Assembly: GCF_037126465.1 (NCBI RefSeq)
Contig: NC_088203.1
Span: 95,108,668-95,172,667 of the forward strand
Reading direction: 5' to 3'
DNA length: 64,000 nt
From: Ornithodoros turicata
Lineage: Eukaryota; Arthropoda; Arachnida; Ixodida; Argasidae
Both the position numbers and the translations under genes were made by a program. This document shows, one piece after another, positions 4,136 through 28,657 of the stretch. How positions within the stretch are numbered: the stretch's first letter is position 1; every line of letters begins with the position of its first letter. The notes under the pieces are model-generated. The model was not told where the DNA came from. It saw only the letters and a program-made list of their open reading frames with translations, and made no database searches.

Positions 4136-4704
4136 TTCAAGGTCAATACTTACAGTCAAGCTCAGGGTTACGTCTACTAGCAGAATGAACTTCACAAACT
4201 GCCAGTACTAGGGCAAGGCCCAAAAGATAAAACTGCATTTTCTATACTTTTGGCCAAAATACGAAGCAGGTGACTAAGATTCCGGCAAAAACTTTACGGT
4301 CCTATTTTCGAGTCTTCCACGAAAGATTTATACCGCAACATTGTTCCATATGGTTTACGGGCCGGTTCAGCTGCGAGAGACACGAAGCAGAGTTCCAGTT
4401 TTCGTAATAAACCTCACTTTCGGGTCACGCCATATTATCAACGGTTAAAACTCTTTCTTCACGGCGCGTTATTGCCTTCCCCGCGTAAATTCCGTTTGAG
4501 GCTGTAAAGGGACGTAATTAACTAAAACAGAGCGTCTCTTTACGGCACGCTCGCAACGTGGCAATAACGAACATCGAGGAGTACAATCCGGGAACGAGGT
4601 ATAAATTCTCTATCGCCACTCGACGTCAGAATCCACATCGACATAACGTAATAGCGCGTTTCTCTCTCTCTTTCTTATTTTTATTTAATTTCTGTTTCTT
4701 AAAT

Positions 4705-6998: not shown

Positions 6999-9900
6999 AT
7001 GGATCCAAAGACGACCCTGTACGTATTCTGCATTGTCATGCTCCTCGTGGGATTATGCAATGCGAAAAAGGCCAAGCCTAACCGTAAGGACGACGAGGAT
7101 GACGATGATGATGATGATGGCGATGATGTTTATGACAACGGAGAAAAGTCTGTGAACGGTATGTGTTCGAGAACGCTGCTGTTACATTTCTTCTTTCTTT
7201 TTTTTTTTTTTTTATTGACGCTTGCGACTGTTGACAACAGACTGGTTAAAAAGATGCATGGTTACAACGATGTTTGCGCATTGTTTTAATCGGGAATTTT
7301 GTCACCCGGTTGCAATGCACTTCTTCCTCGCATTTCAGTGTACAAAATGGAGCTCACGTGCCTCGTACATCTCACGAGGGACCTCCAAACGTGGCCGCCG
7401 GTAGGAAACCAGTTTTTCTTCTTCTTCTTCAAACTTTATTTCGATTTAGACGGTCTGGTCGAGAAAACAATGAAAACGGACCTGCGGCGATTAAGAATAT
7501 GCTGCCAACAAATTACATTGTGTTCCTCAAAAGCGATATAGTCATTCGAGCTTCTAAATTTTCCTGTTTGCCATCAGTGTAGTTTGTGTTGAGCACAAGT
7601 TGTGCATTACGTACGTAATAAATTTTCCCATAACAAACAACTACTTGTTTTCTTCGCGAGCAGAAACCGTCGAAAGAGTTACCGCAGTGGGTGAGTGATG
7701 TGTTCGCTCGATACGCTGTTGCTACACTCTTAAGACAACGCTTCGCCTCATAGCACGCTGAAGGCCAACCATTGTACAGAGTGATATCTCTATCACTCTT
7801 AATTTGTGGAAAGCGTGGGGCGTACGCCTTTTTGTGACAATTAACGTTCCTGCATAAGTGTCGCAAAAAGGCGTACTCTTCCCGTTTTCAACAAATCAGA
7901 GGAGAGAACGTTGCCATTCGGGATGATGGTTGGCTAGGAGCGTGCTATGTGGTGAAGTTCATTTTTAAGAGTGTACGATCTATAGTTCATCTACAAGGAT
8001 ACAAAGCAAAACCTTTTAGATATTTCAACGTCTGGCTGTATCCGAATATATTTTTCGAATGTTTGACAATTAATATTTGGTCATCCCAACATGCCTAACA
8101 CTTGTGCCCTTTTCTAAGTACGCGGAAGTCGAGGCTATTGCTGACAGCTGCGAAAAGAAGGCTGGGTTAAAAGATTCTTGCGAGCACAAAGATAAGGTAA
8201 ATCGGTTATTTTGACACAAATAGGGTGGCTATACCTTGTCGGGAGCAAAACAGGCCACTAATCTGAAGCCGCTTGCAGGTCAAGAACTACCTCGAGTGCA
8301 TGCGCAACGGCGCAAAGAAGGTGGTAAGTTTCTGCTTCGGTATACCTCGTTACAATCCCTATACAACGGTGCTTGACGCGCTTTCCAGTCTCTTTATTCG
8401 TCGAGAAAACGAAGCATTGGAAGGCGAAAGCGGAGAGTTGCGTCAGCGCTGGCAGAAGTCCCATGGTTATACTAAGCGTTCGTTGAAAGTTTATTTTTTA
8501 GGGCATCCATTTTAGTCAAACGTAAAACCGTAGAACATTTCAGTATTTCACGTAGCTTTTCAGAAGCCAAATGTCTGAAAGTCAAAGTACAAGTTACAAA
8601 ATCGGGGGAAGTTGCGGGGAAGTTCAGTCGTAAGGGTGTATACACTCACGATATAACTGAGACAATAAGAAACGTAGATTTTTACAGTTCTCAAAATGCT
8701 AACTCCCGTATGCGTCGGCATTTACGGAAGAAGTCCGCGTCACTATAGTGTCCATTTACCGTCACTATTACGAATTCCATATAACAAACCTAGCCACGAG
8801 GAAGCAGCAGCGTATCTTAACTATCGGTTAACACAATCACCATATATACACCCTTGACGTGCGTAACAGTAACATGCGCTGTTTAAGTGCACACCATGGA
8901 AGCTGTCTACTGTCGAGACAAAAACAACAACAGATAAATTAATGATGATGTATGGACAGTGAACAGTAATATTCATGGGAAGTCATTAAAATAGCAACAG
9001 GTTATGGGCACGGACGCAGGTAGTGCAAATACATGCAATTAATTAAAGGGACACTAAAATGCAAAAACAACTTGCTCTCAAATGAAAGTCCGTGTTTCAA
9101 TTAGTGCAATTCAAGAAACGTGTGTGAACTACACTCTTAAAAATGACCTTCACCGCATAGCACGCTCGTAGCCAACCATAATCTCGAATGATATCGTTAT
9201 CTGCCCTGATTTGTTGAAAACGGGAGGCGTACGCCTTTTTTGTGACAATTATGAACAGCATAAGTGTCACAAAAAAGGCGTACGCCTCCCGTTTTCAACA
9301 AATCAGGGGGCTTAATCGCTTCATCGTCGTTACGGTTGTTACAAGCTAACGAGTGGCAGGAAATTCAAAAAGGCGGGCGGGAAATTTAAAAAGGTGGGCA
9401 CGTGATAAAACACGTGCACGCCGCTCTTCGCGCGATACGTGAAGGCCGTGGTACACGTCACGCGCAATGTGTCACGTGCCCACCTTTTTGAATTTTCCGC
9501 CATTCGTTAGCTTGTAACGACCGTAACCACGATGAAGCGATTAAGCCCCCAGGGCAGATAACGGTGTCATTCGAGACGATGGTTGGCTAGAAGCGTGCTA
9601 TGCGGTGAAGTTCATTTTTAAGAGTGTACGATAGCGTAGTTCACACAACGCTATCGTTTAGAAGAAAACCGCAATGAAAACAGAGCCGTCTTTGGCGGCA
9701 ACGAGTGGGATCCCCAGGAGGCAAAGATTGGCGGCATCCAATCAGATAGCAGGAGAAGCGCGAGCATACCTATCGTGGCTGTGTTAATTTGGAACGGGCC
9801 ATATCGTAGTGTTCCGTATATCCGCGGCATGATGCGCACTGCTGCAATTTTCGATACCGATTCATTGAATTTTAGCCCGTAACAGTTCCCGCTAATGTTC

Positions 9901-10827
9901 CACTGACAACATTTATCTTCACGTCCTTCGGACAGCCGCGCCAGTCCGCTTCGCAACGCGTACTATGTTTTTCAGCGGGATGACTGCGCCATGGCGTGGC
10001 ACGCGCAGCATGGACTAAAAAAACACCGATGCACGAGCTGAAACGGCGTTCACTGCTTAGCGCCGAAGCAAGAAAGAGTCCGGTATAATTTTCGTTCTAG
10101 CTTCCTAACGGAATCAAAGTTTTGGATTATGACAACAAGTATGAAATTAACACAGCGTGTAACGTAATTTAAAATTAACTTGTTTCTGCATTTTAGTGCC
10201 CATTTAAATTCATGCAATTCGTTAAGAGGGAGATTTTTGTTGTTACTTTAAGATGCGCACAAAAAATGCACTGCGCACTCACAGACATTAAACAACTGGA
10301 ATTCCAGCACTATACCATAAGTAATTTGTATAGTTTCCGCTGATTAAGTTCATCCACTGTTCTTCTCTTCTGCTTCCACTCTCGACCAAGGAGAACAAGA
10401 GACGTGGTCCTCGAGAGGAAAAGCTCTTTCTGACAGGTCTTCTTCTTTGTCTTAAAGGCTTGTCCTACTTATCACCTAAATTAGCAGCTAATAGCATAGA
10501 TGCAAGTTTTCCTTTAGTATGCTAATACCATTAATGCAAGTTTCCATCTGGTATAGAAAAATGACGTGGCCAAGAAGAGCTTCAAAACCTACAATGTAAG
10601 TGGCCGATGCAATGCGATCGGATGGAGCATGATTTCCTTTCAGACAATCTCGTTAAGTGCAGTAGATTTACGTTCAGTAATTAAATTTGTCTACACAGGG
10701 ATGCTTAAAAAAGTTCCTCACGTACCAAGACGAGAAGGAAGGCAGGTATGGATCAAAGAGCCTACTACGAAGCTTGAGACAGAACTTCCATTCTCTGAGG
10801 AGCAAGTACAGGTTTTACGACTACTGA
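6999..10827 (+). CDS. gene A: secreted cysteine-framework protein, six exons, unassigned family
   Basis: Exons by eye: 6999-7158, 7339-7400, 8119-8196, 8279-8323, 10557-10595, 10699-10827; all introns are GT-AG, phases 1,0,0,0,0. The product is about 170 residues. Residues 1-22 form a signal peptide (TTLYVFCIVMLLVGLCNA), followed by a basic patch (KKAKPNRK) and an Asp run at 31-43. Cysteines are C61, C85, C95, C107 and C130. Exons 2-5 match genes B and C in length and cysteine position. Exon 3 (AIADSCEKKAGLKDSC..DK) and exon 4 (VKNYLECMRNG) are clearly related to exon 3 and exon 4 of gene C. Size, signal peptide and helical Cys pattern recall tick microplusin-like or salivary effectors, but I cannot assign a family. 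The last exon is the least certain: another frame over the same bases is also open. A TATA box lies upstream and AATAAA lies 169 bases after the stop. Two MITEs sit in its introns. Confidence 0.7.
7723..7975. mobile_element. foldback MITE, TA family, in intron 2 of gene A
   Basis: Outer ends TACACTCTTAAG and TTTTTAAGAGTGTA include the flanking TA dinucleotides. The left arm is diverged (CTCATAGCACGCTGAAGGCC), whereas the right arm is close to consensus (GGCTAGGAGCGTGCTATGTG). It lies between exons 2 and 3 of gene A. Confidence 0.85.
9130..9628. mobile_element. foldback MITE, TA family, interrupted by a second MITE, in intron 4 of gene A
   Basis: Outer ends are TACACTCTTAAAAATGACC and TCATTTTTAAGAGTGTA. 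The arm sequence runs to CAAATCAG, is broken by 243 bases of another element (9307-9549) plus a CAG duplication, then resumes with GGCAGATAACGGTGTCATTC. Removing the insert restores the normal length of about 250 bases, so the order of insertion is clear. Confidence 0.9.
9307..9549. mobile_element. foldback MITE, CAG-target family, nested copy
   Basis: Terminal inverted repeats are GGGGCTTAATCGCTTCATCG and its complement, flanked by CAG on both sides (9304-9306 and 9550-9552). The arms contain CTAACGAGTGGC, GAAATTCAAAAAGGCGGGC and several CACGTG E-box palindromes; the centre is GCTCTTCGCGCGATACGTG. There is no ORF. Other copies are at 14931-15134, 22240-22481 and 43447-43689; two of the four are exactly 243 bases by my count. 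Confidence 0.9.
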
Positions 10828-10995
10828 GCCAATTGCAAGACCACACGGTCGTTGGCAGAACGCAATAGATTGGAAAAGAAGATGTTCTACTGACCCCGGT
10901 GACGAGTATAATCTAGGTTAGTCGGGAAAGAAAATCTCATAAAAAGATGGGTTAAAAAATGATGTGTAACAAGAACGTGATATTCCTTTGAACAC

Positions 10996-11001
10996 AATAA
11001 A
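10996..11001 (+). promoter_or_regulatory. polyadenylation signal AATAAA of gene A
   Basis: A canonical AATAAA lies 169 bases after the proposed stop codon of gene A. It fits a short 3' UTR. Confidence 0.55.
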
Positions 11002-11224
11002 GAAGCATCATTATGAAAGCTTCATGTTGAAATGACGTACGTTGGTCCAACACTCAATCTCCGGACGTCGCAAGGTATCTCCCGTCAGGCTGCTGCGTTA
11101 ATTCAACGAGTACAGTTCAGTATCGCTCTTACTGCTCAGTTGTGTTGCCGCTTGCGACACATCGACTCTCCAAGATGCTATTGCTGTTGTGACTTACTTA
11201 GCGTACAGCGTCTTTAAGTCGGAT

Positions 11225-11370
11225 AACCCTCTGTTCCCACTGTTAGGATCCCCCTTGTAGTTTCATTAAATTACCACGGGCAATGAGGTATAATATCGTC
11301 TGTGGCGATTAACGACAAAACAATCCAATCAATTATCATCATTAAAGTGTTGTTGTTGTTTCAATAATAC
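11225..11370 (+). repeat. LINE 3'-UTR tail fragment
   Basis: The text CACGGGCAATGAGG...TCTGTGGCGATTAACGAC...ATCATCATTAAAGTGTTGTTG parallels the 3' tail of the LINE fragment at 31385-31785 (ACCGTCAGCAATCGGG...AATAAAGTTGTTGTTGTTT). It is a truncated retroposed end. I could not read a convincing RT sequence just upstream. Confidence 0.5.
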
Positions 11371-11929
11371 TGCCTACGAGGATAGAAACCCAGATGTAAT
11401 CAAGGCAAGCATTAGCCATTACAGAAGCTGGCATGCAAAGATAACTGAAAAGAACGTTGCAGACACTACGCGGACGAAATGCGAACACGACACGCATTAA
11501 CATTTCTTGACGTGTTTCATTAGTGCCACACCCTTCTTAAAGAGGCGGCATACATTCGAAAAGAACTGGGGAAAAGATTTCCAAAGGCTTTTGAATGGTC
11601 ATTTATGCATCCATTCAAAGTATACTTTCTGCATTTTTAGCCAATATTTCGGCGGTGTTATCGATGACCACACAGAAAATGCGGAAATACGGTGCGGATC
11701 AACATATGAGGTTCAATTGCTCGCAGCGAATTCTTAATTCGAAATAAACGAACAGAGTAGAACTCTATACTGTTATAGGAGTTAAAGTTGTACGATGCGT
11801 ACGTTGGTATTCGCTGGTGCGCTTCCATAAATGTATAAAGAAACCCCATCATATACATAGCCACAGTCATGCAATGATATGTACATAGTAGCTTGTGCAT
11901 TTCTCATCGTAATGAATTCCAAATAGTGT

Positions 11930-12036
11930 ATTAGTGACGGAAGAAGGAAATCACTGAAAAAGCCCGTTGTAGGACTCGAACCCACATCTTCTGGATTACC
12001 GGTCCACGACTCTACCAACTGAGCTAAGCTAACACT
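11930..12036 (-). repeat. SINE with tRNA-like head (family 2)
   Basis: The minus strand reads TTAGCTCAGTTGGTAGAGTC (A-box-like D arm) and then GATGTGGGTTCGAGTCCTAC (B box), followed by a TTTTTCAGTGATTTCC tail. The acceptor stem does not pair well and the tail is shared with 48095-48178, so this is a tRNA-derived SINE, not a functional tRNA gene. Confidence 0.7.
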
Positions 12037-12754
12037 TTTTTTCTTAAAGAACGTTTTATTTCACACTGTTACAGTTCAAGACGTAGATGTCATTTACAAT
12101 GCAAGATGCGGTATGTGATCGGGAGGGGTGACACAAGAATACATGCTTGAGATGAAGTATGTACAAAAGTGTGGGTGTGATTTGAAGACCACGATCAGTC
12201 CATTAACACTCCGTGGGGCTTGACACAACAAGCTCAAGCACTTTGAACCAACTAACACACCTCCCCCGCGACTTCCAATGGCGCGTCATCTGAAGGGACA
12301 AACCAACCACTCTCACGCTCATCCCACTTTCACTCTTACATGTTTTCTCAATCATACACACATTCATACGGCGGGATCGACGCAAGCGGCATCTGTTGAA
12401 CATGATGGCAATGATTTCCTTCTTTCATCATTAATTTCTTAGGCACTTGAGGCTTTATATGTATTTGTCCCTTATATGTGTTCCAGCCTCAGAACATCAA
12501 TTGCCATCAAGTGTAATAGTGGTGACGTTGAAAAAATTTCCTCACACAAAGTTGTCTGAAGTCTTCGCATGGTGCGAACAAAAAAAAAAAAAAAAAAAAA
12601 GAACACACACCGAGGGACCTGAAAGAAGTAGCAGCAGGCACATGTTTACGGAAAACGAACAAAAATTATCATAATTTGAAGCGGCATAGAGGTAGATTTA
12701 TACCTAACGACTGCAGGTAATTTCGACCACCTGGGCCCGGCGGTAGGAACAACA
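12037..12754. other. no gene recognised
   Basis: This stretch contains an A-run of about 21 bases near 12581 and scattered short ORFs with no family resemblance. I see no splice-consistent coding unit. Confidence 0.4.
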
Positions 12755-12925
12755 AAGAGTTTTGGTACATCTTTACGCTATCGTCTTTGCGTATACGTAA
12801 GGGATAGCGTCGATCGTTCTTCGCACGCCCATAACAGAATGAGAGCGTCGCGCAGTGCGCAGAACCACCAACGCTATCTCCCACACACGCAAAATTGATA
12901 GCGTACGACGTACTAAAACTCTCTA
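12755..12925. mobile_element. small foldback element, GAGTTTTA-ended family
   Basis: It ends in AGAGTTTTGGTAC on the left and GTACTAAAACTCTCTA on the right. The body contains ACGCTATCGTCTTTGCGTA and GGATAGCG, mirrored by AACGCTATC further on. Related elements are at 57601-57755 (ends TAGTGAGTTTTA/TAAAACTCACTA) and 48278-48808. Confidence 0.65.
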
Positions 12926-13077
12926 GTGTTTACATGCTACACGGTCTTCGGCAGGGATTTAAGCCGTGGTCGTGAGCTCACTAATGCCAGCGCGCTGCCG
13001 GCGGAGTTACCGAAGCCGGCCGAAGAGAACGAAAAGTGAAAGGAATCAAAGGAGAGCTCATTCATCATGCGTTGAAC

Positions 13078-13200
13078 CAACAAATATAAACAAAAATATA
13101 AAACATTATAAAAATATTAAATATATAAAAGAAATTAAAAATATAAAAAATATTATAAATATTATAAAAATATAATATAAAACGACAACATATAAAACAA
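13078..13200. repeat. AT-rich low-complexity tract (ATAAA-type)
   Basis: More than 110 bases are made almost only of A and T, in repeating AAATATAAA-like units. Short ORFs across it (Lys/Ile/Asn-rich) are compositional artefacts. Confidence 0.8.
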
Positions 13201-13857
13201 CGTGAGCGCCGGTTGCTCCGCACGTGGCCGTTGATAGAAGATGAACACACTAACTCACGGTACTCTCCCGGTGAGGAAGCATGACTTACCTTCTGTTTCT
13301 CAAGAACACGTCTGCAAAGAAAGAAAGAGTGAGTAATGAGTGCCTATTTCTCAATTTCTTTCTTTTTTATCAACTCAACTCAACAACAACAATAAATAAA
13401 GAAGAAGCGATGATGACATATTGGGATGTTTCCCCGTGGTAGCCACACGACCTTATACCCCACTTCGCAGAGGTTAATATGAGAGGATGAATTATGGTGA
13501 ACGCGAACCGACGACACGTCGGAGTTCTGCAACTCAACTCAACTCAGAGACAAAGGTTACGAAACTTATAAAATGAAGACGCCGACGAAGTCGCGTGGTA
13601 CGTCATACCCATAGTCATTACGTGCGGCCTGTTGCGCTGAAGTTTGCGGAGACCGATCAGGACGCCTATCTCTCCACTAGCGGCAGAGTATACTCTTAAA
13701 AATTAGAGGGGGGGGGTCGAAGTAGCTTGAGGTTGTTGGCCGCACTCAAGTGGGCATCGTCACGACTATAGCCAAAAAAAAAGGGGGGGGGGGGGAGAAG
13801 AGAGTTGACGATTTCAAAGTGAGGCATAGGCAGGATGAACGATACTGATGGGACGGA

Positions 13858-14093
13858 GGTGCACCGCATAGCACGTTCCTAGCCAATCATCATCATCTCG
13901 AATGATATCGTTATCTGCCCTGATTTGTTGAAAACAGGAGGCGTACGCCTTTTTTGTGACACTTATGCTGTTCATAGTTGTCACAAAAAGTCGCACGCCT
14001 GCCGTTTTCAACAGATCAAGGCAAATAATGATATCATTCGAAATGGTGGTTGGCTAGGAGCGTGCTATGCGGTGAAGTTCATTTCTAAGAGTG
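13858..14093. mobile_element. foldback MITE, TA family, left-truncated copy
   Basis: The right end TGAAGTTCATTTCTAAGAGTG is intact. The left end starts inside the arm at GCACCGCATAGCACGTTCC. The usual GGCGTACGCC core and GTGACA...TGTCAC centre are present. Confidence 0.8.
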
Positions 14094-14320
14094 AGCAAAG
14101 CACGGCCGCTCCGCTCGCTTTCTGGAACGTTAGGGCGGTCTTCGCAAGTGTTTGTACATCTAACTACAAAGCGGAACGGGTTCGTCAAAATAGACCGAGT
14201 GCAGCGGAAACGCAAGAGTGGAACTAATTACTGCTGTATTTTGGGGTGCCACAACAACGGTACACTCTTAGAAATGAGGGGGGGGGGGGGGGTGTCGAGG
14301 TAGCTTTTTCTTGGCTCTCC

Positions 14321-14575
14321 TACACTCTTAGAAATGAACTTCACCGCAGAGCACGCTCCTAGCCAACCATCGTCCCGAATGACAACGTTCTCGCCCCTGA
14401 TTTGTTGAAAACGGGAGGCGGAGCCTATTTTGTGCCATTATGCACGGTACAGAATAGGTCCCGCCTCTCGTTTTCAACAAATCAGGGGCGAGAACGTTGT
14501 CATTCGGGTCGGTTGTCATTCGGGGATGGTTGGCTAGGAGCGTGCTTTGCGGTCAAGTTCATTTCTAAGAGTGTA
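14321..14575. mobile_element. foldback MITE, TA family, with extended flanking palindrome
   Basis: Ends are TACACTCTTAGAAATGAACT and its complement. The core differs from the main type (GGCGGAGCCTATTTTGTGCC). The immediate flanks TTTTTCTTGGCTCTCC and GGAGAGCCAAGAAAAAG are themselves inverted repeats, so the palindrome continues about 17 bases beyond the TA borders. A second CACTCTTAGAAATGAGGG start lies just upstream at 14261, which suggests insertion into a related element. Confidence 0.85.
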
Positions 14576-14930
14576 GGAGAGCCAAGAAAAAGAAGAAGTC
14601 GTCGGTCTCGTTTATCGAGGAACAGTTTCCGCCGATGCACTTTTACCGCTTTGCTGGGGTGTCTTCCAGTACTCTGAATTTTGTCTTTCTGTCTGGATGT
14701 CTTCTACAGGAGACGTTACGCTAAACCGTGCGCCTTTATTTCATCGAGGAAAGTAAAGGCTGCAGGTTATCTCAGATTTCTTCACAACATTAATCAATCA
14801 ATCTTCACAACTTCTATCTTCCATCATGTCATCTAATAGTGACTTGCATTCATCGTCTTATGCATTCAGCATCTTATCGCGCAGCACAAAATTTGCAACT
14901 TCAGCAAGACACGCAGAGCTCAAGACCCAG

Positions 14931-15134
14931 ACGTTACGACCTAACGAGTGGCGGGATATTCAAAAAGCCGGGCGGGAAATTAAAAAAGATGGGCACGTGA
15001 CACACTGCGCGTGACGTTTACGACGCCCTTCATGTATGGCGCGAAGAGCGCCCTGCACGTGTTTTATCACGTGCCCTTCTCGACGAGTGCCTTGCCCCTC
15101 GTTAGCTCGTAACGCGTGCAAGCGATTAAGCCCC
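14931..15134. mobile_element. foldback MITE, CAG-target family, left end deleted
   Basis: The right end AGCGATTAAGCCCC followed by CAG (15135-15137) is intact. The left arm begins with ACGTTACGACC directly after a CAG (14928-14930), so about 30 terminal bases are missing. The CACGTG motifs and GCGCGAAGAGCGC centre identify the family. Confidence 0.8.
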
Positions 15135-15137
15135 CAG

Positions 15138-17300: not shown

Positions 17301-17307
17301 GCAATCG

Positions 17308-17313
17308 TATAAG
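17308..17313 (+). promoter_or_regulatory. TATA-like box of gene B
   Basis: TATAAG lies 49 bases before the ATG of gene B, nearly the same spacing as the TATA box of gene A (45 bases). The shared placement supports the start chosen for gene B. Confidence 0.45.
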
Positions 17314-17356
17314 CAGCATATCATGCTTTGCGAGCCTAACGTATACAGGTTCAAAA

Positions 17357-20008
17357 ATGCATCCAGATCGGTGTATCTTCGCAGTTGCGTTTATGATCGA
17401 TGCGGTGGTGTCTCATGCGGCTGCAGACCCATGTCCATCCAGTAAGTAAGTACGCATCGAATGCGAGATAAAAACGTAAACGTCCATCCTCTAGTATGTA
17501 GACTGCAATTGTGACATGCCGTAGTTGTGACACTTGTGACAATTCTTGTGAAAAGGGAAACCGTAAATTACGGTTTCCTCCATGCATAGGTCGCGAACGT
17601 TGCAACGGTTGAATCCCCGCACTAAAGTTTTTGCTTTATTTTCATCATAATTTACGGTGCACATCGACAAACGATATGTCAGCCAAACGTGGTATAACAG
17701 CAGCAGCACCAGTATGCCAGCAACTACACCAGTGGCAGGTATCGAAGGCACACCCTTGTAGTCTCCAATATTGACTAAATTGACCCTGTAGTGGTATATT
17801 TCTTTGTGCATTGTAGATATCATGAGTCGATCGGAGTCCTGAGACATGAGTCATCGTGAGTCACATGTCAATGAATTCACTCTCTACGTAAAAATTACCG
17901 GTCAGGTCTCCAGCATGTAGGTGCCGGTCATCGGGTATATAAGCCTGAAATGATGCTTTTAGGGCTTTCATAAAGCGCTAAAATCGGGGCAGTATGTGCA
18001 TGAACGCGTGCTCTGCAGGGGGAGGGGGGGTATGTTTAATGAAAAGAAAAAAAAGAGAAGGGAAAGGTTAGCCATGACGTAGGCTTGCTATTCCCAAAAG
18101 CCAACCAACAAACAAAAGAAGATAAAAGCAGCAGCAACACAGAAAATTATGGAAAAATACAGAAAAAATAGCTCCTTCACTAATCGTTGTGCAGACAGTC
18201 ATATAGGACGTATCAGAGAGTGCCCAGGAGTTTAGACTCCCGAAGGAATCGCGGAGGATTTACAGTTTTGAAATCCACTATTTCCTCTTTGCGCTAACTC
18301 GGAGCACAGGATCCTCCAAACAAGATCAGTGAGATGGCAACACACAATAAGGTTAATTGCATAATGTAGTTTTAAGATAAACACCTTTATAGATTCGTTC
18401 ATGTTTGTTTGGAAAAGATACGACACCGGAGGCTGCAGGTGAGATGTGCCACAATCGCTACAAGAAAGGCGCTCAACCGGAACGTCAAAGGTCACTGCGG
18501 GTACGTATACGGACATGACTTTGTTCCTTCTTGCACGTTATAAATACCTATAACGGTTTTCCAACCTACTTTGAGCTTTGTTAGCGGTTTTCCTTCAATA
18601 TTCACTAATACACCGAGGCAAGTTAACTCCTACCAGGTCAACTCCGCCCACAAATTTAAAAACGTCTCTGATTGGCTTAGGCGGGCGCATGACGCCTCCG
18701 AGTCACAAAGTAGTGCGCCCTCGTGCTTCAAACTGTTGCTTGCACACAATTTATGTTGCGTAAGACTCGTCGGCAGCGACGTATTTAGAACACTTTTGGA
18801 TGTTTTTAACATGTAAAACACGGATGGATGTTTAAACACGTAAAATATTCGCGCTAGCAAGACGTGTGAGTTGGCATGTGAATCTTCTCGTGTGCCCCAC
18901 TCTCAATGTGCGGAATACACATTCTCCGCCGGCGGAGATTTACCTCTGTTCCTGTAGCCCTTATATTGACTCGGGGTACAACTACTTCATCTTGTTTTGA
19001 TGTGCTCTTTCGGACGACGTTACTTTACCTATCACCTATAGTGATCTTTTTCCTTTTTTCTTTTTTACTTTTCACACTACTTGTTTTCAGGATTAACGTC
19101 CATGTTCTCCTCGTGCAATTTTAACTTTCAGCGATAACATCCTCAAGGAACAGTTCTTTTTCTTCTTCTTCTTTTTTTTTCGATTTCATCTATCTTGACT
19201 CTGAGGCATTTACGTTTTGAAGTGAAGAATATATTGTCCTTTTTAATTATTTCGCTTCCGATGTACCAAGTGCAGCGTAATACACTTAAGTCTTATACAA
19301 TATACAACAAATTTTTATCATATTTTTTTTAAACAGAAACGCGACGCAGCTGGCGGCACGTCCAAAAATATAGTACGTACATATTTATATTTCAATACTC
19401 AAGTTAACATACATGGACATTACATACGACGACAACAACCGCATCATTATCATCTTCATAACATAACGTAGAAACATCTGCCAACAAAATGTAAATGTTT
19501 TATAGACAATTTTAGATATCGAAGACACCTGTACACGGGCAACCTTTGGCGAAGACGAGCCGGATTGTATGCCGAATGATAAGGCAGGTAGTCTCCTTTG
19601 CGGTTGAGGTCCTACGGCCGTTGCTTTCTCGAATGCCTTCATTCACCTACGTGGGCGGTTTCTACCACTGTAGTCCTGAGGTTCATGGTATGGCTTTCTT
19701 TGTCGTTGTTCTAGCTCAAGGAGTGGGTCACGTGCGCTCGTAGGAGGTACATAGCGTCCGGCGTAAGTAGTTACATTTGCCGACCGGAATAGCTTAAGGA
19801 AGTAAACATTTTCGAAAATTTTCAGTTGCAGAAAAAGCAGCCGGCATACTGGAACGTCTTGGTACGTAACTCCTCCCACGCAATTCGGTCGTTAATGGTG
19901 GCAATCGCTATTATGTGCCTTAGAAATGCATTCGAATCAACGCAGGTGGGCCCGGTATCACCAACGCTGGTTAACTTTGAACCGAGATCAAGGCTTGCTA
20001 AAATTTGA
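17357..20008 (+). CDS. gene B: secreted cysteine-framework protein, six exons, paralog of A and C
   Basis: Exons by eye: 17357-17441, 18439-18500, 19506-19583, 19715-19762, 19826-19861, 19946-20008; phases 1,0,0,0,0 as in A and C. The product is about 123 residues. Residues 1-21/23 are a signal peptide (IFAVAFMIDAVVSHA). Cysteines are C26, C32, C58, C70 and C82. Exon 2 (62 bases) and exon 3 (78 bases) have exactly the lengths found in gene A. Exon 3 ends in PNDK, like HKDK in A and SYDK in C; exon 4 (LKEWVTCARRR) aligns with VKNYLECMRNG (A) and FKPFLDCCHEL (C). Intron 3 would use a GC donor (AAG|GCAGGT), a known minor class; a GT four bases later breaks the phase. The exon 2 acceptor has a weak pyrimidine tract and is the least certain join. 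A LINE fragment starts about 75 bases after the stop, and no AATAAA is seen before it. Confidence 0.68.
17491..17847 (-). CDS. uncharacterised ORF with one membrane segment, antisense in intron 1 of gene B
   Basis: This is a 118-codon minus-strand ORF. It has one clear hydrophobic segment (TGVVAGILVLLLLYHVWL, about residues 39-56), followed by a Cys-rich part containing CTVNYDENKAK, FNRCNVRDLCM and HKNCHKCHNYG. I do not recognise the family. It could be a real exon of a small type III or type I membrane protein, part of an unrecognised element, or chance. No promoter, splice site or paralog supports it in this window. Confidence 0.2.
   Translation of the reverse strand: MSQDSDRLMISTMHKEIYHYRVNLVNIGDYKGVPSIPATGVVAGILVLLLLYHVWLTYRLSMCTVNYDENKAKTLVRGFNRCNVRDLCMEETVIYGFPFHKNCHKCHNYGMSQLQSTY
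18018..18095 (-). repeat. C-tailed short retroposon-like repeat, copy
   Basis: The plus strand starts with a G-run and then TATGTTTAATGAAAAG, a purine-rich stretch, AAGGTTAGCC and GGCTTGCTATTCC. In the other orientation this is GGAATAGCAAGCC...GGCTAACCTTT...(T)CATTAAACATA-C(n). It is the same unit as the copies at 32238, 40877, 44958, 49562 and 62687. Confidence 0.65.
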
Positions 20009-20082
20009 AGTTAACACTCAATTCTTTTCTACAAACGTTAGTTGGTGGCGTGATGAATGTTTCAGTGACAATAACTACCTTT

Positions 20083-20640
20083 AGTGAAACATTTTGGGAA
20101 TACTGCATCGATGCAAATATTTTCTCTCACGTCAGGCACTAAAATCAATATACTACGCGCATATCAACTCGCATCTTAGCTACTGTCTGCTAGTTTGGGG
20201 AACAACTTCTAGGCATTCAATCTCCAAACTATTAGTTCTCCAAAAGAAATTTTTACGTATTCTAGAAGATGTGAGCTACAACCATACGACAGCAGGGCTA
20301 TTCGAGAAGTATCGCATACCCAGAATTCACAACCTTTACTGCTATAGGCTCATCCTGGCGTACCGTAAGTGACCTTCTGGACGTGGCGAGCTTAGAAATT
20401 ACCAATCCCGCTTACAATTACCGCCACCCTCTAACATACAAAGTTTCACAGTGCCGGACGTCGCATGGGTTCCACAGGTTGCAATATAATATAGTTAGAC
20501 TACTCAATGATAATACATGCGATTTGTTGTCGTTACACAGAAATGATTTGCTAACATATTTTCGTAATTTTGAATAACCACTACTGTATATAAACGTCAC
20601 ATTGCTGTTGCATAGGTAAGGTTCAAAACTGATCTTTGTT
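20083..20640 (+). pseudogene. non-LTR retrotransposon RT C-terminal fragment, frameshifted
   Basis: The first frame (from 20094) reads ALKSIYYAHINSHLSYCLLV and LLVLQKKFLRILEDVSYNHT, the well-known 'lY.a.i.shl.Yc..vWg...Q.k.lRii' tail of LINE reverse transcriptases. It stops near 20370 and continues in a +1 frame from 20383 (YNYRHPLTYKVSQCRTSHGF ... LLTYFRNFE). No catalytic YADD box is included, so this is a 5'-truncated, broken insertion. It lies just downstream of the last exon of gene B. Confidence 0.75.
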
Positions 20641-20836
20641 TCATTTGCTATTTATTATTATTGATGATTGAGTGACATGTTTGTACTTGTTTATCATTGC
20701 GCATAGCGTTGCCTCGGACCTAAGAACACCTTGCTGAAATATACAGAGCCGTTCTTACTGAGCCGGGCTTCAATGTAGGATTCTTTCTAGAGGTCAACAA
20801 TATCCGCGAAAAATGGCGATACGCTCATCCTTCAGC

Positions 20837-21087
20837 CTAAAAACAGAACTTCAGAACTGAAAGTGAAGAGTGTCAGAACAGGATGGCAGCTTCTGATTCG
20901 AAGAAGGGGGGGGGGGGGGGGGGATGGCGGTGAGCGTATACCTTTTTATGTCAATTTGGATAGGTGGTAATTGACACAAAAAGGCCTACGCCCCCCTCTC
21001 TCTTCGAATCAGAAACGATAACCCTATCATTCGTGGCAATGGTTGGCGCACAGCGTGCCATGCGATGACGTTCTATTTTTAGAGTAT
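20837..21087. mobile_element. foldback MITE related to the TA family, diverged subtype
   Basis: The arms carry TTCTGATTCGAAGA/TCTTCGAATCAGAA and CCTTTTT..GTCAAT/ATTGACACAAAAAGG with a G-run of about 18 in the left arm. The right part shares ACGATAACCCTATCATTCGTGGCA with a fragment at 43155-43226. It ends near TATTTTTAGAGTA. Confidence 0.7.
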
Positions 21088-21099
21088 AAGAAGAAGAAA

Positions 21100-21290
21100 A
21101 AGTATATATAATTTTAGTCCTCTTGAGGGTTAGATACACTGCCACAAACAGAAGTTTATGCGAAGTTTGGGAGCCACTGAAGTACTGAGGAGTAAATTTC
21201 GGGGTCGGAGGACGAAAATGGGGAGTAATTGCAATCTAGGAGGCTAAAAGCTGTAATGACTCCTCAAGTTACCCTATGTTTGCTTCCTTA
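21100..21290 (+). repeat. fragment of the CACTCTAAGAAAAA element family
   Basis: The phrases GGAGTAAATTTCGGGGTCGG, AAATGGGGAGTAATTGCA and CTTAGAGTTC match the 3' half of the longer element at 34675-35197. It is a truncated copy. Confidence 0.55.
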
Positions 21291-22200
21291 GAGTTCTGTC
21301 GGTAGACGCGGAGTAACCTTCAGCTTCAATTGCTCGAATTCTGGTTCTGTACGGAGTGCACTGCTTAGGCGGTGGTGGTAGACTAGTAAGTTCACCTACA
21401 ACATGGCTCGTAAATAAACGTGTCCGAAAACTTTCTTTCCAATCGAAGTACCTCTAATTAACATGTTTCAGAAATTACATGTTAATTAATTACAACGTCT
21501 TAATAATGCAATGTTAATTACATGTTTTAGAAATGCATGAAGAGGCTCGCGGAGAACAAGGTGTCATGGAACCCAAAGGAGAAATAAAGGAATGTCTCAC
21601 CACGCGGTACTGCATTCACAGTACAAGGCACATAAAATTGGTTAAGCTGCTCACCCCCCCCCCCAAAAATAATAATAACAGTTATTTATACCATACAACA
21701 AAATAAAGTTGGAAATGAAAATGAGAAATGCTGTTTTCTTTTATTGAATAATTACGACGCCTTCCCCAACACCGCGTATACGGCACGTAATTGCGAAAAC
21801 TTCAGCTGCACATATGCTGAACACGCGTTGTTTTTTTAAAGCAGAAACACGGCTCTGTTTTTCATTACGACGACAGGCTACGTCCTCTTGCTGCTCCAGG
21901 TTCACTTTGGCAACATTTATAATGCTTGTCTGGGCTCAAGGCACGCGCATGAGCACCTACGACGTTCTGCGAACGCCTTGCGCATCCAATAAGCTGCCTC
22001 GTAGAAAGTCGGGTATTTGTCAGAATGGTCACACTGTTTAATTCACTAAGTTGTCATCATCCTTGGTTGCTCAAGTGATGACAAATAAATGTGAAAGATA
22101 ATTATTTTCATCGGTAAGAACCTACATCCCAAGGTTTACGGCAATGGAGGAAAATAGACACAAAGACGTTCTAAAAGCCAAGATTCGTCATGATAAAAAT
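21290..22200. other. no gene recognised; possible 3' exon with polyA signal
   Basis: A plus-strand ORF (21814-22041) is followed by AATAAA near 22083, and an acceptor-like TTTAAAGCAG precedes it. Two frames stay open, and neither encodes a protein I recognise. It could be the last exon of an unseen gene, but support is weak. Confidence 0.25.
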
Positions 22201-22239
22201 ATAGCACACCGGCTTTACACAACAGAGTAACAGGTACAG

Positions 22240-22481
22240 GGGGCTTAATCGCTTCATCGTCGTTACGGTCGTTACAAGCTAACGAGTGGGGGGAAATTCA
22301 AAAAGGTGGGCACGTGACACATTGCGCGTGACGTGTCCCACAGCCTTCACGTATCGCGCGAAGAGCGCGGTGCACGTGTTTTATCACGTACCCACCTTTT
22401 TAAATTTCCCGCCCGCCTTTTGGATTTTCCCGCCACTCGTTAGCTTGTAACGACCGTAACGAGGATGAAGTGGTTAACCCC
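22240..22481. mobile_element. foldback MITE, CAG-target family
   Basis: The left end GGGGCTTAATCGCTTCATCG is preceded by CAG (22237-22239). The right end ...GAAGTGGTTAACCCC is followed by CAG (22482-22484). The element is 242 bases, with the standard CACGTG-containing arms. Its right terminal repeat has a few substitutions. Confidence 0.9.
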
Positions 22482-22782
22482 CAGGTTTACTTAGCCGTTT
22501 CGTCCTGCCGGCGTCTAAGTAAACCTATTATCCTGTTGTGTAAAGCTGGTGCACGTAAATGTACGCGTAGAAAATCGGCACACTATGTTCATTAAATATG
22601 AACTTTGAACTGAATTGTTTTCTGTGGGAATCACCATCATCATCCTCTTTATTGGCATCATCATTCCTGGAGTTTTTTACCAAAGTAACTGGTGCAAGTG
22701 ACGTGGAGTTGCGGGCCTCAAACCCTTAAACTACTGAAGTGAAGATCTCCATTTTATTTCTTCTTAAATCAAATCAATCAAT

Positions 22783-23017
22783 CAAGTTCACTACATAGCG
22801 CGCTTCTTGCCAACCATCATCCCGAGTGACATCGTTGTTTCCCCTGATTTGATGAAAACAGGGAGCGTACGTCATTTTTGTGGCATTATGCAGTTAATAA
22901 TTGCCACAAAAACGGCGTCCGCTCCCAGTTTTCATCAAATCAAGGGAGAAAACGTTGTCATTCGGGAGGATGGCTGACGAGGATCGTGCTATGCGGTGAA
23001 GCTCTGTTTTTAGTGTG
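22783..23017. mobile_element. foldback MITE, TA family, diverged copy
   Basis: Arms read AGTTCACTACATAGCGCGCT and AGGATCGTGCTATGCGGTGA, with TGATTTGATGAAAAC mirrored by GTTTTCATCAAATCA. The centre is TTTTTGTGGCATTATGCA. The outermost bases are worn. Confidence 0.8.
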
Positions 23018-23171
23018 CACCCCGAGTACCGAAACCCATCTTGCTCTAACGTCACTGCAGGCGTCTCCGCCAATGAGGCGACAGCGAGAGAGGTCACGTG
23101 CTTACGAGAACCAATTAAGAATGGCCGTAGCTCCTCTGGCGTCGGAGCTTGACGCATACGTGCAGCTCATA

Positions 23172-23362
23172 GAACAGAACTTCACCACATAACACGCTGA
23201 AGTTCAACGATTGCGCAGAGGTTATCACCTCGGATTTGTGGAAAGCGCAGGTTAATAAACATAACTTTGCAAATGTCACAAAAAGGCGTACGCATCCTGT
23301 TTTCAACAAATCAGCGGAGAGGATGATGTCATTCGAGATGACGGTTGGCTAGGACCGTATTT
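23172..23362. mobile_element. foldback MITE, TA family, partial copy
   Basis: It starts with AACAGAACTTCACCACATAA and ends in the right arm near GGTTGGCTAGGACCGTAT. The left arm is heavily altered and the GGCGTACG core is present on the right side only. Confidence 0.65.
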
Positions 23363-23841
23363 TGTTATTCCATTTATCGGTTCATTCATCCTGTACTCAC
23401 CTTCACCCCCTTTTTCTTTCGTTTTTTTTTTCGGCTATAGACGTGACGATGCCCAGTCGCGTATGACCAACAACGGCAAGCCTCCTTCGATATAACCCCC
23501 CCCCCCCATTCTAAGGGCACGTGTTCGAGGGAGAGGTGAGGAATAATGCATTAGCGGTAATGCATTAGATTTGGGTAATGAGTAATGGTAATGCATTGCA
23601 TTTTGACCGAGCAATGCGTCATGGATTTACTCATTGTACTCGGGCTGAATGTTCTCGTACTGTCTAAACCGGACAATTAGAAATTGCGCCGCGTCGGGAG
23701 ATGGAAAATCGCTGTTTTTTACAAGCCAGCTTTCAAAACGACCAGGCGGAGAACCAAGAAGGGGAGTATGCCCCAGTAGGCCAAACACGTGTCCAGATGG
23801 TGTCGTCACTCTTTTTCTCCTCTAACTGTTTTCTGTACTTA

Positions 23842-24093
23842 TCACTCTTAAAAATGAACTTCACCACATAGCACGCTCCTAGCCAACCGTCATCCAGGGT
23901 GATATCGTTCCCTTCCTCGATTTGTTGAAAACGGGAGGCGTACGCCTTTTTGTGACACTTATGCAGAAATGTTAATTGTCACAAAAAGGCGTACGCCTCC
24001 CGTTTTCAACGAATCATGTGAGAGAACGATGTCACTCGGGATGATGGTTGGCTTGGGGCGTGCTATGTGGTGAAGTTCATTTTTAAGAGTTTA
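23842..24093. mobile_element. foldback MITE, TA family, well preserved
   Basis: Ends TCACTCTTAAAAATGAACTT and AAGTTCATTTTTAAGAGT mirror each other almost perfectly. The core ACGGGAGGCGTACGCCTTTT is intact on both arms. The flanking TA is partly mutated on the left. Confidence 0.9.
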
Positions 24094-24410
24094 GTTCTCC
24101 GTGCGCCATTAAAACTTACATCATCGTCGTTATCTATGTTTTGCGATCAGATGAGAATGAACGCACACACACAAAAGAAAGCATGTAACAAGTGATGAAC
24201 TATGTTTGTCTTGTACTGAGCGCCAACTACATCTGCCCTGCAATAAATCCTATTATGAAAGTAATCTGCGCTGCAGCAACATATTACATGCACACTTTAT
24301 ACAAACTGTTATGCGCAAATTCACTCGTACCGATACCTATGCAGGGCCTTATTAGACACTTCTGAGAGAAAGTAATGATATTACTTGATGAAAGTAATGT
24401 CATTAGTAAT

Positions 24411-24469
24411 GCCCCAAGCAGCACAACATATCGGTCCAATATTGGTCCAAGATGTTGTGCTGCTTGGGG
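24411..24469. repeat. hairpin with 19-base perfect arms, followed by CCAATAT tandem motifs
   Basis: GCCCCAAGCAGCACAACAT is mirrored exactly by ATGTTGTGCTGCTTGGGGC around a 21-base loop. Just downstream, ACCAATATCGGA-like units repeat several times to about 24550. Confidence 0.8.
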
Positions 24470-24604
24470 CATTGGTCCAATAGTGGACCAATATCGGACC
24501 AATATCGGATCAAAATCGGATCAACATTGGACAGACGCCAATCGGATTGGATCGGCTCAATATTGGGGCAGAATATTGTGATCCTTGATGCATTACTACT
24601 GTGC

Positions 24605-24775
24605 TGTCTGGGATTTTCCCTCGGCTTTCCGGCAGTCTTTCCGGGCGAATGTCGGCATGGTTATTCCTGAAGTCGGCCCAGTACGCATACTAACCCGGCT
24701 GTCCTCTCTCCATCTGTCTACGTCTGTACGCCGCTCATAGCCATAGTTGTTTCGCGGTGCTAACGCAGAATTTTA
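24605..24775 (+). repeat. tRNA-headed SINE (Ruka-like), 5'-truncated
   Basis: The body contains GGATTTTCCCTCGGCTTTCC, TGAAGTCGGCCCAGTACGCA, CTCCATCTGTCTACGTCTGT and CATAGTTGTTTCGCGGTGCT, in the same order as the complete copy at 46401-46675. The tRNA-like head is missing. Confidence 0.8.
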
Positions 24776-25059
24776 AAAAAATCATTATCAACCACAGAAA
24801 TGTAACGAGTAACGTAATGCATTACTTCTGAAAAAAGCAATGTGTAATGGTAATACATTACAAAATAAAAGTAATAATTTCCCCACCTCGACGGTTCGTA
24901 TCCGCAAAGTACGACACGCAGAACAATGATTGTCTTTTACCCAATACTCTGGCGTGCGGGACAAAGCGTGCATGATGAAAAGAACCGCATTTATCAAAGT
25001 GTCGTAACCCGTTTAAGGAATTTTGTACTCTTTCCAAGGCAACGGAACACACCACTTCA

Positions 25060-25365
25060 AAGTAGAATTTCACCACATAACCCTCTAATTGCGCGGAATG
25101 GTTCCTGATGTGTGGAGAGCGCGGGGCGTACACTTTTTTGCGACAATCACACCGAGCTTGCCTACTTCGTTCCCCCATCTTATGGTCATCATCATCTCAT
25201 CATAGTCTCCAGCTACAGTCGTGACGATGCCCACAGCGCCAACAACGGCAAGCTGGTACCATCACCAACATGCACCACCACTTTGTGACAATTACACATA
25301 ACTGCATACGTGTCACAAAGAGGCGCATGTCTCCCGTTGTCAACAAATCAGGGGAGAGGACCATT
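25060..25365. mobile_element. foldback MITE, TA family, degraded and interrupted
   Basis: The left arm (ATTTCACCACATAACCCTCT...GGGGCGTACACTTTTTTGCG) and right arm (GTGTCACAAAGAGGCG...GTTGTCAACAAATCAGGGGA) are separated by a short repeat insertion at 25205-25285 that carries GTCGTGACGATGCCCACAGC. A further left half-arm of another copy follows at 25372-25478. Confidence 0.6.
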
Positions 25366-25924
25366 GCGAGTTAGCACTCTTAAATCAGAACTTCTTGCCA
25401 ACCATCGTCCCGAATGACAACTTTCTCTCCCTTGATTTCATGAAAACGGGGGGCGTACGCCATTCTTGTGGCAATTTTGAACCGCCGCCGCCTCAAAGAG
25501 ATGAGCAGGTCACGACTGACACCCTGGGGAATGTGCGTCCTGGGCCGACTTCTAACACGGCTGTAATAGATGTTGTAAGAACGTATCAGCAACCCGGACT
25601 GATTTGCATGAGCAAGCTGCATCTTCCGTGCGCGGGGCTACAATATTTCATCTCGTACCTTTCGTCGGGAAAACTTCGTTATTCATATTTCATCTCATTT
25701 GGAACCGGGATGTGGCAGCCGACGTCTCTTGATTCGTGAACGGGCCCTGACTTACGAACTTTTATCAGTCCACTCCATATTTATTGACCTCTCGTTACTC
25801 ATCCCGTTGAACGAATGCATGGACAACAGCCGCTGGAAAAAGAGTGCATTCCTATAGGCCACCTGGTCAACGTTTGGCGAACGATCGCGAGGCAGAGTTG
25901 CGATCCTTGTATAGCGAGTCAGAG

Positions 25925-28657
25925 ATGCGGCTCGTATTCTTCCTCGCACTACTTCTGGCTATTACATGCGAGATCCAGAGTGAGCGACGTTATTACCCCA
26001 AACAGCGAATAAGAGTGAGACCAAGATGTAATAAACGTAAGTAGTGATTTATTTGCTGCTTTATGTTGCCTACCTATTGTTTCGAAAATTCAAAAGTACG
26101 TGCATGTGCACCAAGTTGTCGACTAGATACCCAAGAGTTTAAGGCTATGTCCAAGCACCTTGGAAGTCTCGATGCAGTTTTTAAGCTGGCAGTGGTGCTG
26201 TATCACCTTCTCGAGTTGCTGGTGTAATAAACCGGTGTTGGAATTGATAGCCTGGTACTCGGCGAATAAAAAAACGTTATGCCGAAAACTGTCAGAACTT
26301 GTCGCAGTTTATGTCAAATAAAGCTATTTTCGCTTTCTGTTTCAGTACCTAACGAACTGATGCAGTGTTCTTACAACTTATACAGAGGCGTACATCAGTA
26401 TGACCCAGAAAGCGTAAGCCCTTAATCTCGCATATTTTGCGAGGTTTTACTTCCATACGAGAGTTCAGGTAGCACAAAACGTATCACGTCTAGCTGTGCG
26501 AAACTTTAATTTTTCGAATATCAAAGCGAATGTGTCCGATTCGATTCAGAGTCGAATGCTGCTTTCTATATTCGAACTACGAATCGAACATCCTTTCGAA
26601 ACAGAATATATTCGAGTATTCTCGAATCTGCACGAGTGAGCCTGTTAATGCCACAAAACAAGGCAACCAAATAGGCGCTGCTTGATATGAAGATACGTAC
26701 ACGTTCTCATATGCAAATATATCATGCAAACCATCTGCGACACATTGCAGCATTCTTAGCACTCAGAACTTCACTAACTTGGCAGGCCTTGCTGCAGCTA
26801 TGCAACGAGGTAGTGTGACACCCCGTTTCCTTCACTGTATGAGAGGACACTCCACGTTTCACCTATTTTGCGGTGCGTTTACTGGTATTCGGTATCTCGC
26901 AGCCATACCTCGGCAAAACTCACTCATCAGCATGCTCATTCATGCTCACTGATACTCAACGTGGCAAATGAGTTGAGCATGACCGATAAAACGGAGGGCT
27001 AAGCGGGGAGTGAGTGAGAATGAGTGAGCGAGTGCAACTGCTACACGGAGGAACGTGATATACTTGACAAAATTCACATTCGTGAGCATGTTCACTCACG
27101 CTCACTCATGCTCAATGTGACGAATGAGTTGAGTATTAGTGAGCAAACGTAGAGCTGAGCTTGAGATGAATGAGCATGAGCAAGGGTCATAAGTGCTCAC
27201 CTCTGCTCGCAGTAGTTAGTGTGCGGTAAATGCCACTTGCGGTGCTATGGAAGAAGCAGCTACCCACGCCCTCTGTCTTGGATGTGGCCGCCAGAAGTTT
27301 CGACGAAGCGAAGCTGCTTCGAAATATGTCGAATGCGGCAGTGTTCTTTAGACGACCAGAATCCGTACGCTTCAGTTTCGAAGTGACTATTCGCACTCCC
27401 CTAATACACCCTCAACATAGACCTGGGCCAACGAATCCTTATATTTTTCTTTCTCAAATCAAACCAACGCTCACAAGTGGAATACACTGTATTTTGTATT
27501 TGTATTTTTTTTCTATCACGTCACATCACACTGTATTTGTTTTATTAGGAGGTGGTAATGAACATTCTCCGTTTCTGTACTGTCTCCAACGGCCTGGACG
27601 ATGCTGACTTCAAGTGCTTCTCTTATGACAAAGTAAATATTCCTTCTTTTTTCTTTCTTTTCCATTGACTTTTCAATGTCCACGCTATTGATTGGAACCT
27701 TATATTTTAGTTCAAACCGTTCCTGGACTGCTGCCACGAACTCAACGCACATTATGTGGTAAGTCGGGATAACATCGTATTCCTTTTTAGTGGTCGTGTC
27801 AGTTGTATACTCGCGGATACATTAAAAAATGCGTCCCTTCATTTTGTTGTTGTTGTTGCTTTGAAGACTTATCAATAAAATATTGCCCGAAAACAAATAC
27901 CACCTTTGAAGCAGCGTTCCAGCTGAAAAGTTTGCACGATTTCAAAACTGTTCCAGAGGGGATAAAGATTATTGTAGTACTGTGCAACACAATCAATATG
28001 CTACACTCTCAAAGGATTGCGAAATATTTAGAATTGACTAGGCACGAAGAAAGCCATGGGAACGCAACTCGCGTATGATGTCCCCCTTCCAAGTTACTGC
28101 CAGTAAACCAGTACAGCTGCTTTCGCTTTTTCTTTTTCTTTTTTTTAGTGTTCATGTAACAGCGTTCCAATATAAATACTTAGGCTATACATCCTTTTCA
28201 GAAACCCGTCCCATTAAAACTGGAACTCAACGCCTACTTGGTACGTATTAGCGATGTCGTGTTAGGCAAAAAATATAATCGCAACTCGTTAAAACATTCC
28301 ACAAGAATTCCACTGCATACCAGATCATACAGAGCTTAACGAAAATTTCTTTTTAAAAACAAAAACACCGCAGTGTGCAATGCATGGTCGTTCTCTTTCC
28401 TTTTTTCCCCCGCTGGAATTCCTTCTGCAGGTGCAAATCAATATGAATTGCCTGTTGAGGTTTCAACGCTGTCTTCTTTCAGGAATGCGTCGAGGCCATA
28501 TCATGATGCCGTGGACGGGAATTTTATCTTTATTTTTTTTATAACCCCATATTGAGTTACAGTTAAGTACATATGAAGCAAATTTATTACATTGATCTTA
28601 TGGCGACACTACACTATATTACAGCAAGGCGACGTGAGAGCATCGGATGTCCAGTAG
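25925..28657 (+). CDS. gene C: secreted cysteine-framework protein, six exons, paralog of A and B
   Basis: Exons by eye: 25925-26036, 26346-26413, 27549-27632, 27711-27758, 28202-28240, 28625-28657; all introns are GT-AG with good donors (GTAAGT, GTAAGC, GTAAAT, GTAAGT, GTACGT), phases 1,0,0,0,0. The product is about 127 residues. Residues 1-19 are a signal peptide (MRLVFFLALLLAITCEIQS), followed by a strongly basic segment (RRYYPKQRIRVRPR). Cysteines are C35, C45, C70, C83, C95 and C96. Exon 3 encodes NILRFCTVSNGLDDADFKCF and exon 4 FKPFLDCCHELNAHYV, aligning with A and B; the C83-C95 spacing of 12 is identical in all three. The best-supported gene of the window. Family unassigned; it may be a tick-type antimicrobial or salivary effector, by size and basic start only. 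AATAAA follows at 28710. No clear TATA box at the position seen in A and B. Confidence 0.78.
26500..27200. repeat. low-complexity ATTCGAA and GTGAGCATGAGTGAG tracts in intron 2 of gene C
   Basis: From 26505 to 26640 the text is rich in TTCGAATCGAA-like words. From 26930 to 27185 it repeats CTCACTCATGCTCA and its complement. These look like decayed terminal regions of DNA transposons. No ORF is supported. Confidence 0.45.

Follow-up and report, generated by a model that had tools for sequence, protein, structure and literature searches.

Genes at the locus

The stretch of Ornithodoros turicata DNA analyzed here (64,000 nt, C3:95108668-95172667; hereafter the window) carries three genes for secreted proteins on its forward strand, denoted A, B and C, and four more genes, D-G, have been modeled in and upstream of it. 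The seven span 51.5 kb of both strands (C3:95085638-95137173 of the same genome) in the order D+, G-, E+, F-, A+, B+, C+. An initial annotation of the window had described three tandem genes only, with a shared plan of six exons, as an unassigned secreted family of low identity. The family and its common exon plan stand, with no significant Pfam match for the six products scanned and 15-30% identity to A in an alignment of the seven members, but the numbers of genes and of exons had to be revised.

Gene A corresponds letter for letter to the public O. turicata protein LOC135388863 once a micro-exon passed over in the initial annotation is included, and the translation of gene C is identical, letter for letter, to LOC135387491. 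Both proteins are named 'uncharacterized', so that two members of the family are already annotated under names that give no family, function or grouping, and neither was found named in the literature. For gene B no counterpart was found among public proteins in a search with shared 5-residue words. The expectation that ordinary searches would miss these genes thus holds at most for B, since A and C were already in the automatic annotation.

The micro-exon of gene A (phase 0, cag/gtgagt splice sites) is part of LOC135388863, and A therefore has seven coding exons and a distance of 33 residues, instead of the annotated 24, between the exon-2 and exon-3 cysteines; the corresponding values for B (26) and C (25) were confirmed. 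An extra candidate micro-exon is also carried by D, E and G. Gene C had been extended to 28657, whereas LOC135387491 stops earlier, in the last exon given in Table 1.

Rebuilding A, B and C by splice rules otherwise reproduced the annotated exon sizes (Table 1; A micro-exon apart), the intron phases 1-0-0-0-0, the signal-peptide exon and the cysteine positions, including the last exon-3/exon-4 cysteine pair, 12 residues apart in all three (C95-C107 in A by the earlier numbering, C70-C82 in B and C83-C95 in C). Exon 1 of each gene is signal-peptide-like, with a hydrophobic N-terminus and a possible cleavage site, and by a simple -3/-1 rule the mature chains are predicted to start with KK (A), DP or nearby (B) and ER (C). 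A TATAA motif is located 45 nt before the ATG in A and 49 nt before it in B, none precedes the ATG in C, and a poly(A) hexamer follows within 210 nt of the stop codon in each gene. The reading frame of gene B is complete, but its model is less sure than those of A and C, with a GC donor at exon 3 (gcaggt) and two possible acceptors for exon 2.

Table 1. Exons of genes A, B, C and F in the window (positions counted from its first nucleotide).
Feature	Position	Strand	Remarks
Gene A exon 1	6999..7158	+	signal peptide followed by an acidic stretch; phase-1 donor gtatgt; in LOC135388863
Gene A exon 2 (62 nt)	7339..7400	+	first core Cys; in LOC135388863
Gene A micro-exon (27 nt, 9 residues)	7664..7690	+	in LOC135388863; skipped in initial annotation; candidates in D, E, G
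Gene A exon 3 (78 nt)	8119..8196	+	second and third core Cys; in LOC135388863
Gene A exon 4 (45 nt)	8279..8323	+	fourth core Cys; in LOC135388863
Gene A exon 5 (39 nt)	10557..10595	+	in LOC135388863
Gene A last exon	10699..10827	+	codon 2 encodes the fifth core Cys; basic tail before the stop, poly(A) hexamer 168 nt after it; in LOC135388863
Gene B exon 1	17357..17441	+	signal peptide; donor gtaagt; TATAA at 17308
Gene B exon 2 (62 nt), preferred	18439..18500	+	alternative 18418-18500; splice rules alone
Gene B exon 3 (78 nt)	19506..19583	+	GC donor
Gene B exon 4 (48 nt)	19715..19762	+	splice rules and exon-3/exon-4 pattern
Gene B exon 5 (36 nt)	19826..19861	+	splice rules
Gene B last exon	21531..21587	+	codon 2 encodes Cys; stop codon, then poly(A) hexamer at 21702
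Gene C exon 1	25925..26036	+	signal peptide, Arg/Pro-rich stretch, extra Cys; in LOC135387491
Gene C exon 2 (68 nt)	26346..26413	+	in LOC135387491
Gene C exon 3 (84 nt)	27549..27632	+	in LOC135387491
Gene C exon 4 (48 nt)	27711..27758	+	CC pair; in LOC135387491
Gene C exon 5 (39 nt)	28202..28240	+	in LOC135387491
Gene C last exon (24 nt)	28483..28506	+	codon 2 encodes Cys; stop codon, then poly(A) hexamer at 28710; in LOC135387491
Gene F exon 1	4154..4238	-	signal peptide, donor gtaagt; splice rules only

Tests against chance, further members and neighboring elements

The exons are tiny, and B and D-G were modeled from splice rules and similarity alone, as would be expected if splice-like sites had been assembled by chance where no genes exist. 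For A and C this explanation is largely refuted by the public proteins, which agree with the models down to the micro-exon, and the null controls contradict it as well. A pattern describing the end of exon 3 and the start of exon 4, drawn from A-C, had three matches on the forward strand of the window, exactly A, B and C, and none on the reverse strand, in the reversed or complemented window, or in 20 mononucleotide shuffles (one strand each). Since this pattern was fitted to the three genes themselves, leaving one gene out is the fairer test: the omitted gene then beat the best match of Markov-1 sequences in 40/40 (A), 40/40 (B) and 36/40 (C) cases. On the forward strand itself the omitted gene ranked 10th (A), 9th (B) and 9th (C), and the higher-ranking rows, among the top six printed for each, were training genes or pairs holding half of one. 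In Smith-Waterman comparisons the real score was reached by 8 (A-B), 1 (A-C) and 4 (B-C) of 1000 shuffles. Taken together, it is practically certain that A-C form a real family, and a chance assembly is extremely improbable. The three annotated genes are taken to be real, B with less assurance than A and C.

Exon-4-like sites upstream of the window led to D, E, G and F, which were modeled by splice rules within 264 kb (the window plus 100 kb on each side), with search rules that included intron phase and a cysteine at codon 2 of the last exon. A hand-made exon-4 pattern, drawn after the candidates had been seen, matched seven times in the 264 kb, once in each of A-G. When the same range was scanned with a matrix trained on six genes (A-E and G), these six loci scored 41.0-52.5, and one further row outside the family scored 11.8; in 12 Markov-1 sequences of 264 kb the best score was 19.8, and three of the 12 gave no match at all. 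Gene F was missed by the matrix because it lacks the third core cysteine, and although the remaining 212 kb yielded no further gene, members resembling F may escape such a scan. Pairwise scores connect all seven genes through 12 of the 21 pairs, each reached by at most 6/500 shuffles. We consider it very likely that most of D-G are real family members.

Only exon 1 of gene F falls within the window; the remainder leaves the window's start and reaches approximately 6.8 kb before it. In a tblastn comparison the signal peptide of F resembles that of gene C (4217-4161, E 1.7). A tandem array of 11.6 copies of a 103-bp unit (L010:3926-5127) lies upstream of the window, next to the probable first exon of gene G. 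By eye, the unit looks like the end of that exon, and exon and donor sequence may for that reason have been multiplied into the first intron of the gene.

Other elements in the window include an inverted repeat of 97% identity with 147-nt arms (37336-37482 and 37582-37728), each arm containing a type I hammerhead ribozyme (37361-37405, reverse strand, and 37659-37703, forward strand); a further perfect 32-nt inverted repeat lies inside this palindromic, ribozyme-bearing element. Inverted repeats that share inner arms and outer ends with one another were seen by eye at about 7720-7970, 9130-9625, 13850-14095, 14325-14575 and 23840-24095. Mostly about 250 bp long, the copy at 9130 being longer and containing a nested repeat, they look like an abundant palindromic element of the miniature inverted-repeat transposable element (MITE) type, and the first two lie inside introns of gene A. 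A transfer RNA match on the reverse strand (11961-12033, 39.2 bits, gathering score 29) is possibly a tRNA-derived repeat and not a gene. An open reading frame at 1712-2026 (reverse strand) has no Pfam match at E≤0.01; it resembles the helix-turn-helix region of a mariner-type transposase. At the same threshold, no Pfam match was found for any of ten open reading frames of the window other than those of the gene family (0/10).

Shared anatomy, predicted fold and searches for relatives

The gene models share a core of five cysteines: exons 2 and 4 encode one each, exon 3 encodes two, and the fifth is found at the second codon of the last exon in 7/7 genes (for D-G as a search rule). Intron phases are 1-0-0-0-0(-0) in A-F, and in G from exon 2 on. 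The distance from the third to the fourth core cysteine, across the exon-3/exon-4 junction, is 12 in 6/6 genes that keep both, and that from the fourth to the fifth is 22-27 in 7/7 genes (24 in C, counted from the first cysteine of its CC pair). Between the first and second core cysteines there are 33 (A, D, G), 39 (E), 26 (B, F) or 25 (C) residues, the longer distances belonging to the genes with micro-exons of 27 nt (A, D, G) or 33 nt (E), and from the second to the third the distance is 10 (A), 12 (B), 13 (C), 7 (D), 10 (E) and 8 (G). An extra cysteine precedes the core by 6 residues in B (with the preferred exon 2) and by 10 in C. After the signal peptide, with cleavage sites of D-F set by hand, A, D and E contain five cysteines, as does G counted from exon 2; B contains six, C seven and F four. 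The N-terminal segment and the domain carry opposite net charges in A (-8/+11), E (-3/+11) and C (+7/-6).

Structure prediction, proposed together with the initial annotation, gave a helical bundle for gene C and a poor model for gene A. The best of five models of C, computed from a two-row alignment, has a mean predicted local distance difference test (pLDDT) score of 75.4, with values of 77-94 by ten-residue block from residue 41, and contains five helices (40-54, 60-73, 78-82, 86-103 and 107-123). The domain is thus probably helical, as judged from this model. A disulfide between Cys45 and Cys70 of C would be plausible, since the two are equally distant from the loop of the first hairpin. 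Fold searches of the PDB gave no clear match.

Sequence searches likewise returned no relatives in other species. Only A and C were recovered from 5.77 billion proteins (2 of 423 candidates), and repeated protein-word searches returned only one of these two (1/3 and 1/35 candidates). D-G were absent from the matches, but the searched 5-residue words came from A, B and C alone, and such a search does not establish a restriction to O. turicata. Six products (G from exon 2, F excluded) had no significant Pfam match, the matches (best E 0.019) being scattered over unrelated families, and no significant match among PDB sequences was obtained (best E 0.053). Helical cysteine repeats of CagY/Cag7, found with a six-member profile (E 0.05-0.07), were read as chance. 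In the tick's own genome a protein search with A gave 13 matches at E≤10, clear ones only within A, while three of the weaker matches, L026, L028 and L030 (E 0.013-0.17), were all aligned via a run of Asp. The corresponding search with E gave eight matches, clear ones only within E; it found neither A nor F, and is therefore uninformative on distant copies. None of ten papers retrieved on soft ticks and multigene families describes such a family in its title or abstract opening. By the searches made the family would be new, yet of a lineage-specific, secreted multigene kind that is common in ticks, and this commonness limits surprise.

Likely role and comparison with known systems

Each modeled product consists of a signal peptide (unsure for exon 1 of G), a short and variable N-terminal segment and the five-cysteine domain. 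If the other members fold like the bundle of gene C, the domain would be a helical bundle pinned by intrachain disulfides. The odd fifth cysteine would be free or bridge two chains in A, D, E and G; its partner in B and C would be the extra N-terminal cysteine. The charged N-terminal segment may lie on or mask the domain, an acidic segment on a basic domain in A and E and a basic segment on an acidic one in C. As divergence within the cluster has reached 15-30% identity with A and spared little beyond the cysteine frame, the likeliest role would be to bind a fast-changing partner, either in tick immunity (as an antimicrobial of haemolymph or gut) or at the host interface (in saliva). Soft ticks are carriers of relapsing-fever spirochaetes. 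We give about an even chance to the whole reading, i.e. that the seven-gene cluster constitutes an undescribed secreted family with a five-cysteine domain and an immune or host-interface role.

Several observations weigh against this reading. Gene C is the sole source of the fold, the model of A reaching a mean pLDDT of 51.5 only, and the five models of C average 75.4, 75.0, 61.4, 59.6 and 51.1. Only three genes show a clear charge contrast, the N-terminal charge of B, D and F being -1 to 0. Nine of the 21 pairs are weak, with 11 to 266 of 500 shuffles reaching the real score, and eight of these nine involve B or C; the tree is not resolved into any well-supported branch, the split of B and C from the rest having 68/77. 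Three matches of the six-gene matrix that are not complete family loci also exceed every null, one unrelated (21.6, window position 36673) and two mixing a real and a chance exon (39.0 and 24.2). At the point where the other genes splice after exon 1, G lacks a GT donor, and F, in addition to its missing core cysteine, has no clear micro-exon and a weak exon-3 acceptor. D-G could include pseudogenes.

Fast divergence is by itself no proof of an arms race, and the proteins might instead serve inside the tick, in egg, sperm, cuticle or cement, and diverge under relaxed constraint with no part in defense or feeding. The strict cysteine frame and the open reading frames of the modeled members oppose simple decay, and we regard this explanation as unlikely. 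A more elaborate version of the immune or host-interface reading, in which the proteins act as disulfide-linked dimers, shed the charge-opposed N-terminal mask on activation, and have the first loop lengthened by a micro-exon that is spliced in or out to alter the binding face, is rather doubtful as a whole. Much of tick secretion is unassigned, and the frame of the seven genes offers a ready profile for relatives in other ticks. The case also illustrates that exon plan and cysteine spacing can recover families missed by sequence search.

Two known systems were considered as distant relatives. Chelicerate odorant-binding proteins (OBPs) are small, helical, six-cysteine proteins of very low identity, as described in PMC8222343, and the cluster could be a divergent branch of such carriers of small hydrophobic ligands. 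The only PDB matches of a three-member profile were two odorant-binding protein entries (E 0.58-0.59), aligned by way of Cys-x4-G and LKxYxxC. Both entries are from mosquito. The match lacks significance and was lost when six members were used for the profile, and was hence read as chance; no OBP was among the best 50 rows of either PDB fold search, and PBP_GOBP was not listed in the Pfam scans of the six products. VdesOBP1 (PDB 7NYJ/7NZA) resembles the cluster in being a small secreted helical protein, strongly diverged and with few spaced cysteines, but it gave no significant sequence match and no fold match among those 50 rows, and its cysteines, placed at 21/41/68/111/132/141 in PMC8222343, are spaced 20/27/43/21/9, compared with 10/25/13/12/24 in gene C, the only member compared (C95 counted, C96 omitted). 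Chelicerate OBP-like proteins pair their cysteines C1-C6, C2-C3 and C4-C5; the pairing in the cluster is conjectural. An OBP ancestry is accordingly of low probability.

Kinship with microplusin and hebraein, copper-binding tick antimicrobials of which microplusin was suggested in the initial annotation, is judged equally improbable. Neither a three-member nor a six-member profile returned a microplusin chain at E≤10 from 177,635 PDB sequences, which presumably include one. Like the proteins of the cluster, microplusins are small, secreted, cysteine-containing tick proteins, and the five helices predicted after the signal peptide of gene C recall the five helices of microplusin, which are reported together with three disulfides in PMC7344629. 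On the other hand, PMC6509419 gives microplusins six shared cysteines, a His-His start (in one species preceded by Asp) and a His-rich C-terminus, while the cluster has a five-cysteine core, no His-His among the mature starts of A, B and C, and no His (B, C, D, F), one (A, G) or three scattered (E) in the tail. The helical layout suggested earlier is supported by the fold predicted for gene C; membership was rejected on the His-His start, the His-rich end and the six-cysteine frame, though a remote kinship of fold could still exist. Microplusin and hebraein bind copper(II) and are active on Gram-positive bacteria, and among the seven products E stands nearest to microplusin: its mature chain holds seven His, and its N-terminal segment contains HH.

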